From a bacterium (lineage in GTDB: Bacteria; SZUA-79; Acidulodesulfobacterales; Acidulodesulfobacteraceae), in contig DAHVOJ010000006.1 in NCBI GenBank assembly GCA_027318865.1, positions 1 to 62,148 on the forward strand: a stretch of 62,148 bases of DNA. Direction: 5' to 3'. The notes under the pieces are model-generated. The model made no database searches, had not been told where the DNA came from, and worked only from the letters and a program-made list of their open reading frames with translations. Positions within the stretch are counted from its first letter, which is position 1. Each line of letters starts with the position of its first letter. Position numbers and translations under genes: made by a program. Below, piece after piece: positions 9,313 to 53,809 of the stretch.

Positions 9313-10476
9313 GTGAAAGAATATAACGGTCTTCAGAATAATTTTAAAGAATATTTCGATTCTAAAAGAAGAATAGTAATAAAAATAGGCACGCAGGTTC
9401 TTTTAAACGAAGAAGGAAAACTTTCTCCGCCGTCTTTTAAAAATATCTGCGGTTTCGTTAATTCTCTTAAGGCTCAAAAAAAGGAAGTAATTCTTGTTTC
9501 ATCCGGCGCTATCGCCGCGGGAAAAGATATGCTGGGCATAAACCCGGAAACAGGCGGGTTTTCCATTCCTCAAAAACAGGCGTTCGCCGCATGCGGACAG
9601 CCCGTTTTGATGAAAAATTACGATTCCTTTTTTAAACGGTACGGCCTTAAAACCGCGCAGGTCCTTTTAACAAAAGAAGACGTTTCCGTCAGAAAGAGAT
9701 TTACAAATGCGCGCAATACCATATATGAACTGCTTAATAACGGAGTAATTCCTATAATAAACGAAAACGACACCGTTTCGTACGAAGAAATAAAATTTTC
9801 TGACAACGACCAGTTATCAGCGCTCGTTTTAAACTTGGTATGCGCGGACCTTTTTATTATTCTTTCAAACGTAAAAGGGGTTTTCGATAAAAATCCGAAT
9901 ATTTATAAAAATGCAAAACCGGTCAAAATCATAAACGATATTAAAAATTACATTAAAAATTTTAAAGACGGTTCTAAAAGCATTCACGGAACCGGAGGCA
10001 TGAAATCAAAACTTTATGCCGCTTTTATTGCCGCAAGCGCAGGCATAGATACCGTCATCGCTTCGGGTAAAGACAAAAAAAGCTTAGATTTTTTATCGGA
10101 AGGCAAATTATGCGGAACTTTGATTGTTTCCTCGCCTCGTAACAAAATAAACAAAAAAAAACACTGGCTTTTATTCGGGATGGAAAAAACGGGAGAGATA
10201 GTTGCCGATAAAGGCGCTATCGAAGCGATTACTTTCCAAAATAAAAGCCTTCTTGCAGGCGGCATAATTAAAATAAAGGGCGATTTTAAAAAAGGCGATG
10301 GAGTTTATATATTGGACGAAAACGGAACCGTTTTTTCTAAGGGCATCGCTAATCTCGATTCGGACGATGTTAAAAAAATAAAAGGTTTGAGCGCCGAAGA
10401 AATAAAAATAAAATTCGGCAAAGATAAAATTTCCTCTTTAGTAGTCCATAAAGATAAAATGGCTTCAAATGTATAA
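9313..10476 (+). CDS. proB: glutamate 5-kinase
   Basis: ProB phosphorylates glutamate, the first step of proline synthesis. The product of 387 residues has an amino-acid kinase domain (VIKIGTQVL, VSSGAIAAGKDMLG, NENDTVSYEEIKFSDNDQLS, HGTGGMKSK). A C-terminal PUA domain begins at about residue 285 (GEIVADKGAIEAI, LLAGGIIKIKGDFKKGD). Translation starts at GTG: an in-frame stop lies immediately before it (9310-9312) and no ATG occurs near the N-terminus. proA follows 24 bp downstream, so the two enzymes are almost certainly co-expressed. Confidence 0.96.
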   Translation: MKEYNGLQNNFKEYFDSKRRIVIKIGTQVLLNEEGKLSPPSFKNICGFVNSLKAQKKEVILVSSGAIAAGKDMLGINPETGGFSIPQKQAFAACGQPVLMKNYDSFFKRYGLKTAQVLLTKEDVSVRKRFTNARNTIYELLNNGVIPIINENDTVSYEEIKFSDNDQLSALVLNLVCADLFIILSNVKGVFDKNPNIYKNAKPVKIINDIKNYIKNFKDGSKSIHGTGGMKSKLYAAFIAASAGIDTVIASGKDKKSLDFLSEGKLCGTLIVSSPRNKINKKKHWLLFGMEKTGEIVADKGAIEAITFQNKSLLAGGIIKIKGDFKKGDGVYILDENGTVFSKGIANLDSDDVKKIKGLSAEEIKIKFGKDKISSLVVHKDKMASNV

Positions 10477-10500
10477 AAATAGGAGTTTAAAGGAGCAGAT

Positions 10501-11778
10501 ATGGACAATATGAGTAAAACCGCATCTATAGAAGAAATTGCGGAGAAGGCTTACGGCGCAAGCAGTAATATAGCAAATGCCGGCCCCGCAATAAAACTTA
10601 ATATACTCGGAACCCTTAGGGACCTTTTAATTAAAAATAAAAAGCGGATAGAAGCCGAAAATGCCAAGGATATAGAAAGCGCAAAAGCGGCGGGATTAAG
10701 CAAGCCTATGCTGGACAGGCTTCATATCGGCGAAAAGACGTTTTCTTCCATGCTTAACTCTATCGACGACGTAATGAAGATTAAAGACCCCGTAGGCGAA
10801 ATAGAAAATATCGCGGTAAGGCCGAACGGGCTTATGGTAGGCAGGATGAGAATACCGCTCGGCGTAATCGGAATAATTTACGAATCGAGACCTAACGTTA
10901 CTGTCGATGCGTCGATACTCTGTCTTTTGTCCGGGAACGCGGTAATATTAAGGGGCGGTTCGGAAGCCATAAACTCGAATAAAATACTTGCTTCGATAGT
11001 TTCGGAAAGCTTAAAAATTAACGGTCTTCCTCCGGAAGCCGTTTCTATAGTTCCTTATACGGACAGGTCTGCAATTGCGGAAATGATATCGCTCAAAAAA
11101 TACATAGACCTTATAATTCCGCGGGGCGGCGAAGGACTTATTTCGTTCGTGACGGAAAATTCCAAAATTCCGGTAATAAAGCACGATAAAGGCGTCTGCC
11201 ATATATACGTCGATAAATATGCCGATATAAAGAAGTCGGTCGATGTAATAATTAATTCAAAAGTTCAGAGGCCTTCGGTATGCAACGCCTTAGAAACCCT
11301 TTTAGTCCACTCCGATATTATGGACGGCTTTATGCCGGAAATGCTTGCCGAACTTAAGAAAAATAACGTTGAAACAAGAGTGGACGGCGAAATTATGAAT
11401 ATTTTTAAAAATAAGTTTAATTTTATAACTCCGGCAACCGATGCAGACTGGGATGCAGAATATCTTAACCTTACGCTGTCGGTTAAAGCCGTTAAAAATA
11501 TGGACGAAGCTATAGAGCATATAAAACTGCACGGTTCCGACCATACCGAGTCTATATTGACGGAAAATTATACCCGCGCGCTCGAGTTCATAAAAAAAGT
11601 AAATTCATCCTGCGTACTGATAAACGCTTCTACAAGGTTTAACGACGGTTTCGAGCTGGGACTCGGCGCAGAAATAGGCATATCAACCTCAAAAATTCAT
11701 GCATTCGGACCTATGGGCGCAAGAGAACTTACGACGACTAAGTTTATAGTATTTGGAAACTACCAGAAGAGAGCGTAA
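10501..11778 (+). CDS. proA: glutamate-5-semialdehyde dehydrogenase
   Basis: ProA reduces gamma-glutamyl phosphate to the semialdehyde with NADPH, the second step of proline synthesis. The 425-residue product has the family motifs RIPLGVIGIIYESRPNVT, LRGGSEAINSN, IPRGGEGLI and the catalytic cysteine region VQRPSVCNALETLLV. Near the end it has STRFNDGFELGLGAEIGIST. An AAAGGAG ribosome binding site precedes the ATG. The length is normal and all key positions are present. Confidence 0.97.
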   Translation: MDNMSKTASIEEIAEKAYGASSNIANAGPAIKLNILGTLRDLLIKNKKRIEAENAKDIESAKAAGLSKPMLDRLHIGEKTFSSMLNSIDDVMKIKDPVGEIENIAVRPNGLMVGRMRIPLGVIGIIYESRPNVTVDASILCLLSGNAVILRGGSEAINSNKILASIVSESLKINGLPPEAVSIVPYTDRSAIAEMISLKKYIDLIIPRGGEGLISFVTENSKIPVIKHDKGVCHIYVDKYADIKKSVDVIINSKVQRPSVCNALETLLVHSDIMDGFMPEMLAELKKNNVETRVDGEIMNIFKNKFNFITPATDADWDAEYLNLTLSVKAVKNMDEAIEHIKLHGSDHTESILTENYTRALEFIKKVNSSCVLINASTRFNDGFELGLGAEIGISTSKIHAFGPMGARELTTTKFIVFGNYQKRA

Positions 11779-52619: not shown

Positions 52620-52946
52620 AGCGTTATCGTCAAATATATAAACAGAAATATATATAATCAATACCGTATAACATCAAATCAAATTTACTATTAAGATGTA
52701 ACGAAAGATGCAGTGATATAATTAGCAGATAGATTAAGAACCGGTGGGTATTTAAATAAGTATAAAACCCCACTCCTTTTTAAGGAGGGGTGCCTTCTTC
52801 CGATACAATCATAATTGCTAATTTTGTATAAAACCCCACTCCTTTTTAAGGAGGGGTTTAAAGTTTGAATTTGCAGATTATTTATTTACGTCCAATTTGC
52901 TTTACGATTTTATTAATTTTAGATGTTTCATATGTTGGATATGCTA
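52620..52946. other. gene-free stretch with solo palindromes
   Basis: No ORF is supported in these 327 bp. It is AT-rich and holds two identical 31-bp copies of a palindrome-containing repeat (52761-52791 and 52827-52857), described separately. The remainder shows nothing recognisable. Confidence 0.6.
52761..52857. repeat. two identical 31-bp palindromic repeats
   Basis: The 31-bp sequence at 52761-52791 is repeated exactly at 52827-52857. Its core CTCCTT-TTT-AAGGAG makes a short hairpin extended by CCCC/GGGG. The core and the following GGGGTGCC also occur at the left end of the DUF559 unit (52961-52980). Confidence 0.9.
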
Positions 52947-53505
52947 CTTTTAACTCCCCTCCTTTTTAAGGAGGGGTGCCCGTCAGGGCGGGGTGGTTTT
53001 TAATATAATGCAGAATAAAATCAGCGATATTCCAAGCAATAATAAAAAATTAAAAACATTGCGTAAATGTTTACGCAAAAATCTTACGCCTGCAGAAGCT
53101 AAACTATGGAAGTATTTGCAAAATAAGCAATTAGATGGCAGAAAATTTCGCAGACAGCACAGTATAGGTAATTATATTTTGGATTTTTATTGCCCGTCCG
53201 AAAAATTAGCAATTGAATTAGACGGTGAAATTCATAATATTGAAACTCAGGCCGAATATGATAATGATCGCGATTTATTTTTGTTTAATTGCGGAATAAA
53301 AGTTTTAAGATTTGAAAACAAGGTGGTTTTTGAAAATACCGGCTACTTGATTGATTGTATAAAAAAAATAATTTGGAAAGACGGCTCCGTTATTCTGAAA
53401 CCACCCCGGCAGGCTGATGCCCGCCACCATATTTTTCTGCAGCAAAAGACGTGCTTTTACTAAACACGCAGAAAAATATATCTTAAAAAGGAGGGGAGTT
53501 AAAAG
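52947..53505. mobile_element. 559-bp unit with 24-bp perfect inverted ends around a DUF559 gene
   Basis: The 24 bp at 52947-52970 recur as an exact reverse complement at 53482-53505. Nested inside is a second inverted pair of 11 bp (CGGGGTGGTTT at 52989-52999, AAACCACCCCG at 53398-53408) and, near the right end, a 12-bp palindrome (ATATTTTTCTGC at 53429-53440, GCAGAAAAATAT at 53468-53479). The single gene inside is a DUF559 nuclease-like ORF. No transposase is present and no clear target duplication was found. It could be a mobile palindromic element or a non-mobile repeat cassette. Confidence 0.65.
53008..53463 (+). CDS. DUF559 (Vsr-like PD-(D/E)XK) nuclease-fold protein
   Basis: DUF559 proteins are related to very-short-patch-repair endonucleases and type II restriction folds; their role is unknown. 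The 151-residue product has LRKNLTPAEAKLWKYLQN, GRKFRRQHSIGNYILDFYCP, the core AIELDGEIHN, YDNDRDLFLFNCGIKVLRF. These include the Asp, Glu-x-Asp and downstream residues expected at such an active site. A GTG at 52993 is in frame but lies in the inverted repeat; ATG 53008 is preferred. The C-terminal residues (about 132-151) are encoded by the right-hand inverted repeats. Confidence 0.85.
   Translation: MQNKISDIPSNNKKLKTLRKCLRKNLTPAEAKLWKYLQNKQLDGRKFRRQHSIGNYILDFYCPSEKLAIELDGEIHNIETQAEYDNDRDLFLFNCGIKVLRFENKVVFENTGYLIDCIKKIIWKDGSVILKPPRQADARHHIFLQQKTCFY

Positions 53506-53579: not shown

Positions 53580-53809
<230 letters not shown>

Follow-up and report, generated by a model that had tools for sequence, protein, structure and literature searches.

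The DNA analysed here, called the window below, is a stretch of 62,148 nucleotides (GenBank assembly GCA_027318865.1, contig DAHVOJ010000006.1) from a bacterium of the family Acidulodesulfobacteraceae. At positions 52,947 to 53,505 it holds one gene for a DUF559 nuclease between inverted repeat units of the BoxC/PIT or intrastrand triplex type, a motif that the available text of Holder et al. 2015 (PMC4666352) describes as a pyrimidine block, a purine block and a mirrored purine block. We found that DUF559 cassettes bounded by inverted triplex-type units cross lineages and that the cassette is coupled to the spread of the units. The stretch in the window is probably one copy of such a cassette, mobile now or formerly, whose units are its ends and the likely substrate of the DUF559 nuclease. 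Inverted pairs without the gene, and units that stand alone, are best read as derivatives that lost the gene or never had it.

DUF559 genes between inverted units in many lineages

A search of relatives revealed unrelated families in which DUF559 genes lie between differing G/C-rich palindromes. We examined such loci with a unit finder, a formal search for units of the form Y - R - mirrored R (Y, pyrimidine; R, purine), counting a unit as near the gene when it lay within 300 bp. Among 80 named loci, the best 80 of 549 confirmed and chosen by conserved protein patterns, a unit was found on the left in 70, on the right in 61, on both sides in 55 and on any side in 76, and the nearest pair was inverted in 52 of the 55 both-sided loci. 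By record title, these 55 loci include members of Desulfobacterota, alpha-, beta- and gammaproteobacteria, Rickettsiales, Elusimicrobia, Dadabacteria, Gastranaerophilales, Auribacterota, Anaerolineae, Kapabacteria and Flavobacterium. An inverted repeat with a score of at least 14 surrounded DUF559 in 49 of the 80 loci, compared with 5 of 2379 control windows taken from these loci with matching geometry.

Because the named loci had been picked by protein patterns, we assembled a second sample that was not so chosen, consisting of 369 genomes of one gammaproteobacterial class, that of G061 (the genome of a Xanthomonas locus). DUF559 was present at E<=1e-12 in 78 of the 369 genomes (115 rows), and the 90 loci analysed are the 91 best rows minus that of G061 itself, the 24 weakest being left out. 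Any unit was found at 85 of the 90 loci, a left one at 74, a right one at 76 and both at 65, with the nearest pair inverted in 58 of the 65. The link between DUF559 and palindromes that the earlier note had proposed from the window alone is therefore general. Units were absent from all 30 control loci of Y1_Tnp and from all 12 weak DUF559-like matches, and dinucleotide-shuffled flanks gave a left unit in 3/270, a right unit in 2/270 and both in 0/270.

To these counts we add several observations on the loci. Both units are reversed relative to the gene at L127, L138, L161, L170, L174, L178 and L179, in lineages that include Gastranaerophilales, Anaerolineae, Flavobacterium, Thiodiazotropha and cyanobacteria. 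For carriage of DUF559 by phages, we found 2 of 50,697 phage records and four loci in viral_contigs. Tandem arrays accompany 17 of 170 DUF559 loci versus 11 of 491 control segments (p 7e-5); arrays flagged with a unit occur at 9 of the 170, a weak excess (p 0.065). At L188 (G328), the right-hand unit is repeated about seven times beside DUF559, in 95-bp copies at 1841-2527, and at L123 (Rickettsiales) 45-bp tandem repeats stand on both sides of the gene, at 9875-9971 and 10397-10538. A proposed triplex signature, T opposite A in the third strand, was dropped, since T was not preferred (T 343, A 461).

We counted one pattern of the repeat, CCCTCACCCNNNCCCTCTCCC, in the 369 genomes with one mismatch allowed. 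It was present in 56 of the 78 genomes with DUF559 versus 59 of the 291 without (odds ratio 10), so palindromes distributed without relation to the gene, which the earlier note had named as a sign against its proposal, were not what we observed. At least five copies, more than the flanks of one gene can supply, were present in 34/78 versus 27/291, and at least ten in 24/78 versus 14/291. The association persists in genomes with and without Y1_Tnp, which by itself gave an odds ratio of 1.9.

The left and right units of an element also resemble each other. In 110 elements with inverted units, the mean identity of left and right unit was 0.855 within elements and 0.717 between elements. In the ten genomes with at least two elements (24 elements), identity was 0.886 within elements versus 0.806 when units of different elements in one genome were compared, and 12 of 20,000 permutations reached the observed within-element sum. 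G167 and G425 each contain two elements with dissimilar ends (between-element identity 0.60 to 0.67). Ends and protein co-varied over the 110 elements (Mantel r 0.31, 0/2000 permutations), a value that still includes shared ancestry. The identities within and between elements indicate that the ends belong to their own element.

One site in several states, and copies within a genome

The earlier note had called for a comparison of empty and filled sites, and we found filled, unit-only and empty versions. In the Xanthomonas family, the hppD-hmgA region was matched in 155 of 159 genomes and the 30 best-scoring loci were inspected. At each of the 13 loci that carry DUF559 the inverted units stand on both sides, as against any unit in 3 of the 17 without DUF559 (Fisher 4.8e-6); these three are G481 and G587, with one unit each, and G458, with an inverted pair, and the finder reported none in the other 14. 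Judged by eye, G509, one of these 14, retains a bare hairpin at this site. In the family of G282, where bioF was matched in 5 of 6 genomes, all variants occupy one loop of bioF in frame: without DUF559, G601 is empty, G386 has a short extra loop and G157 has one unit, and with DUF559, G600 has units on the right of the gene and G282 on both sides. At one place in a pglX-like methylase gene, Planktothrix has nothing, Pseudanabaena galeata an inverted pair, and Synechocystis B12 units together with DUF559. The states may have followed one another in either direction: a gene homing into a pair would yield them, and so would a cassette that lost its gene. No intron or intein was seen and the units are complete on both sides, but the unit-only and filled states that share a site in bioF and in pglX would be expected from homing into an inverted pair.

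Cassettes were also found in frame within hsdS, hsdM, hsdR, DNA methylase and bioF genes. We scanned ten of 13 loci chosen for a long open frame, a choice that favours in-frame cases. Restriction-modification domains were present in eight (Methylase_S 3, N6_Mtase 2, N6_N4_Mtase 2, HSDR_N 1); of the other two, one is bioF and one selD-like. Two hsdM-like genes from two genomes (L234 and L260) agree at two positions: one loop of each contains a solitary unit, and a DUF559 cassette occupies another place common to both.

Genome G108 contains three copies of a 494-532-bp element at three places (L196, L216 and L219), with identities of 481/494, 484/494 and 523/532; one copy has a stop in its DUF559 gene. 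They are flanked by 9-bp direct repeats, GTGCAGATT (exact), GTTTGTAAC (exact) and GTTTTTAAC/GTTTGTAAC (8/9), and their outer inverted repeat reaches about 40 bp past the units, which we saw in G108 alone. Two of the G108 elements sit mid-way in a palindromic target (GGTCARGGTTTGTAACCTTGACC-like). In a Methylibium genome, 27 of 28 close repeat pairs are inverted (among 100 of its 105 repeat places); the 20 stretches inspected there contain pairs with short variable spacers that resemble miniature inverted-repeat transposable elements (MITEs).

The window element and its genus

The coordinates of the window element are collected in Table 1. The outer arms are 100% complementary with 511 nt between them, and the one gene they enclose matches PF04480 (DUF559) with an E value of 1.2e-31; the earlier note's exact 24-bp inverted repeat around a single DUF559 gene is thus borne out. 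The left unit reads AACTCCCCTCC-TTTTTAA-GGAGGGG-TGCCCGTCAGGGC-GGGGTGG-TT, that is, a pyrimidine block (CTCCCCTCC), a loop, the purine block GGAGGGG, a hairpin as second loop and the mirrored purine block GGGGTGG, which is the order Y - loop - R - loop - mirrored R of the BoxC/PIT/triplex motif. Folded as single-stranded DNA it gave -14.4 kcal/mol (z -3.83), and it was the single unit, directly 5' of the DUF559 gene, that the finder reported in the whole window.

Table 1. Features of the DUF559 element and its surroundings in the window
Feature	Position	Strand	Details
Two truncated tandem copies of the left hairpin	52753-52791, 52819-52857 (52753..52857)	+	66 bp apart; no third block
Left outer arm	52947..52970	+	exact 24-bp inverted repeat
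Left repeat unit, triplex-type	52952..52998	+	unit finder: 52954-52998
DUF559 nuclease gene	53008..53463	+	ATG 53008; stop TAA 53461-53463
Third block of right unit	53399..53407	-	AACCACCCC (- strand: GGGGTGGTT); faces the gene; from comparison with G006
Hairpin-bearing stretch interrupting the right unit	53429..53479	.	12-bp arms 53429-53440 / 53468-53479
Right outer arm	53482..53505	-	24-bp inverted repeat

The right unit is the inverted counterpart of the left, but it is broken by a hairpin-bearing stretch, which is the nested inverted pair seen in the earlier note; the counterpart in the genus relative G006 is intact. The finder did not detect the interrupted unit (locus L009, right none). 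Two further copies, at 52761 and 52827, had been taken for non-autonomous relatives of the element. We find instead that they are truncated tandem duplicates of its left end, because they are direct repeats of the hairpin only and the same 66-67-bp period occurs in G006 and G003. The genome-wide search that the earlier note had suggested gave nine copies of the core CTCCTTTTTAAGGAG in the 1.46-Mb assembly of the window's own genome, G000 (up to 13 with one mismatch), and 0 copies of the pattern read backward. At 20 places inspected in the genus, almost all copies are the full unit including the third block.

The open reading frame between the arms runs from a GTG at 52993 to 53463. Starting at this GTG would make the gene overlap the left unit, and an in-frame ATG lies downstream of it (Table 1); the last ~25 codons extend into the right unit. 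The conserved R, E, W, F, R, E.DG..H and D..R residues of DUF559 are all present. The ratio of nonsynonymous to synonymous substitution rates (dN/dS) was 0.06-0.08 in six pairs (window gene, G003, G006, G026), which shows strong purifying selection on the DUF559 gene.

By sequence profile the nearest solved structures are 3hrl (NGO0050, a DUF559 protein; E 1e-19) and the homing endonuclease I-Bth0305I (3r3p; E 1e-5). A structure model (pLDDT 75.5 overall, about 90 in the core) gave the same order in Foldseek, with 3hrl at E 2.6e-8, 3r3p at 6.7e-4 and Vsr (1vsr) at just 0.15. Profile match and fold both place the protein among the PD-(D/E)XK, Vsr-like DUF559 nucleases, the superfamily to which the available text of PMC1189080 had assigned DUF559/YcjD. 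The model of 53008-53460 also returned mitochondrial ribosome proteins of Toxoplasma and Tetrahymena (probability 1.0, E 0.009-0.015). Anti-phage models of PADLOC gave short, weak and partial matches (DpdF, mREase_II, Hhe), the best with an E value of 2.2e-6 over 62 of 1078 positions. A second, weak DUF559-like match exists in the same genome (G000:C110:3768-3887, 23.6 bits).

Among 15 genus relatives, a strong DUF559 gene occurs in G003 and G006, with units on both sides and an array of 66-67-bp period on one side. These two genes and that of the window occupy one locus, with the same permease gene on one side and a tRNA-Ser gene on the other, and no recent movement is seen there. The permease comparison covered 15 loci in 14 genomes (G001 left out), with the tRNA within the stretch in nine. 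Seven of the permease/tRNA loci lack DUF559: in G012 two hairpins are present without a gene, one G010 contig has a right-end remnant (judged by eye and not reported by the unit finder), and five have nothing. These gene-less, remnant and bare loci mark the cassette as old and partly lost in the genus. The window's tRNA-Ser (tga) lies at 53721-53809 and a partial copy of its 3' part adjoins it, giving a 25-bp exact direct repeat (53580-53604 / 53714-53738); genus relatives have one to several partial tRNA-Ser repeats at this locus. The Y1_Tnp gene of G000 is on contig C36, where no palindrome place is listed.

Readings of the cassette and related systems

We propose that a unit or a close inverted pair, when the DNA is supercoiled or single-stranded, would extrude as a hairpin, cruciform or triplex, and that the DUF559 nuclease would recognise the extruded structure and nick or cut there. 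Repair would then insert a copy of the whole cassette, or of a unit alone, at the cut, in the fashion of a homing endonuclease; alternatively, it could multiply an end beside itself and so produce the 40-140-bp tandem arrays at some ends. A broader proposal is more tentative, with a real chance of being correct: YcjD-type DUF559 proteins might be the dedicated enzymes of BoxC/PIT/triplex repeats and form with them a second, independent selfish element of repeat plus nuclease beside the system of repetitive extragenic palindromes (REP) and REP-associated tyrosine transposases (RAYT). Such an enzyme would read hairpin or triplex structure over fixed sequence, copy its cassette or units alone into new sites, often in frame in restriction-modification genes, and could be the source of the orphan triplex repeats now present in E. 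coli, cyanobacteria and many other phyla.

Several results weigh against a cassette driven by its own nuclease. No unit lies within 300 bp of the gene at 4 of the 80 named loci and at 5 of the 90 gammaproteobacterial loci, just these few being DUF559 genes without flanking palindromes, the other counter-sign given in the earlier note. The one pattern searched has zero copies in 22 of the 78 DUF559 genomes, and the 14 DUF559-free genomes with at least ten copies have 10 to 64 (top 64, 49, 40 and 32), which shows that persistence or spread of the repeat does not require a gene that we could detect. The sampled genomes are related, which makes the p-values too small and lets the Fisher values overstate independence. 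The Y1_Tnp control is modest, since its loci have no units away from the gene either and few of their genomes are rich in repeats: nine of the 30 carry any copy of the pattern (82, 64, 40, 18, 17, 4, 2, 1 and 1), and at least ten copies occur in four, beside the 82-copy genome, which is among the DUF559 genomes. Many elements occupy conserved loci (hppD-hmgA in several genera), and this, with the single locus in the window genus, speaks for long residence over frequent jumping. In addition, the 9-bp duplications in G108 point to a DDE-type transposase acting on the outer repeats.

This last point is the core of one alternative, in which the unit pair with DUF559 is moved in trans by a DDE transposase and the nuclease is cargo or an accessory comparable to TnsA of Tn7, itself a PD-(D/E)XK protein. 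The three G108 copies with their outer inverted and 9-bp direct repeats, and the likeness of gene-less inverted pairs to MITEs, agree with it; the cassette, however, contains no transposase, and the long outer repeat is confined to G108. Among 126 elements with outer inverted repeats, target-site duplications numbered 2 versus 0.94 expected, as rare as in mismatched controls, a result that tells against transposition of this kind and against our reading alike. A general target-site duplication was thus not found in these 126 elements, and none was seen outside G108. We regard the alternative as unlikely.

It also seems improbable that the nuclease has no role with the repeat, the repeats spreading otherwise and, being fragile, collecting insertions among which DUF559 lodges by an integration or repair route. 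Homing-type genes do sit in or near their own target, and the pattern occurs in DUF559-free genomes (59/291). The available text of PMC4666352 likewise reports high variability around the motifs in E. coli. Yet a chance lodger would not have two inverted units at 65 of 90 and 55 of 80 loci, nor ends matched to its own element over other elements of the same genome, and the RAYT-type Y1_Tnp, known as the REP enzyme, is without an adjacent unit (0/30) and has the far lower odds ratio (1.9 versus 10). We consider it very improbable that nothing moves at all, DUF559 being a resident Vsr-like repair or restriction nuclease and the hairpins its terminator or control elements. The low dN/dS and the conserved loci would suit a resident gene, as would the DNA damage that the Caulobacter DUF559 protein VsrA causes in vivo when a methylase is absent, according to the available text of PMC12907096. 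Against it stand presence and absence at one site, including unit-only versions, the three copies in G108, and the in-frame cassettes inside restriction-modification genes and bioF, where a terminator would not be kept.

We call this kind of cassette new because none of the families tested accommodates it. BoxC/PIT/triplex repeats have been known since the 1990s and share with the window unit the three blocks, the G/C-richness, the many copies and the close inverted pairs; here, in contrast, a DUF559 gene lies between inverted units. In the window genus, moreover, the second loop holds a hairpin and is wider than the 1-6-nt loops searched according to the available text of PMC4666352. According to that text, E. 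coli K-12 has five close inverted motif pairs, no mobility gene was found in the neighbourhood of the motif, and an E. coli motif forms a triplex in vitro, a stable triplex in vivo being unsupported; the words "nuclease", "DUF" and "ycjD" do not occur in its main text. A link between DUF559 and these repeats was not found in the literature searched, subscription papers and preprints lying outside the search. So far, DUF559 is the strongest candidate for the enzyme that the orphan BoxC/PIT repeats lack.

By analogy, the cassette would work like a REP/RAYT element (REPtron) without being one, and it resembles a homing gene without its usual seat. As in REPtrons, a nuclease gene lies between short inverted palindromes, and there are many gene-less copies, including inverted pairs like those of bacterial interspersed mosaic elements (BIMEs). 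The enzyme between the palindromes, however, is a PD-(D/E)XK protein and not a Y1 (HUH) transposase, and the ends are of the triplex type and not GTAG-tagged. A RAYT as mover was rejected as main explanation on the Y1_Tnp counts given above. I-Bth0305I is, by profile and fold, the nearest solved nuclease of known role, but it is annotated as a mobile intron protein, whereas the cassette has complete inverted units rather than half-sites. Rickettsia palindromic elements, in which palindromic sequence stands in frame in protein genes, are similar in that respect.

If the enzyme reads DNA structure, a selfish element would have a new route for choosing its sites. The proposal would also account for the abundance of DUF559 genes of unknown function and for peptide tracts such as PLPLGEG and SPPGRGAGGEG inside bacterial proteins. 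The link between DUF559 and the units can be put to the test in E. coli K-12, which has both ycjD and the repeats. YcjD (PRK09767) belongs, with NGO0050 of N. gonorrhoeae, to the same DUF559 family as the window protein (NCBIfam E 2.9e-22, below its cut-off). The E. coli gene lies beside fabI and has a triplex-type unit on its 3' side; the finder gave no left unit (L175, L333), so that the cassette is incomplete in E. coli. The gene is present in 3365 of 5426 genomes. We rejected ycjD as a clean empty/filled pair because its absence goes with an efflux operon between sapF and fabI, as described in the available text of PMC12817139 and seen in the five ycjD-less alleles that we fetched (E. coli sapF-fabI, L333-L338).
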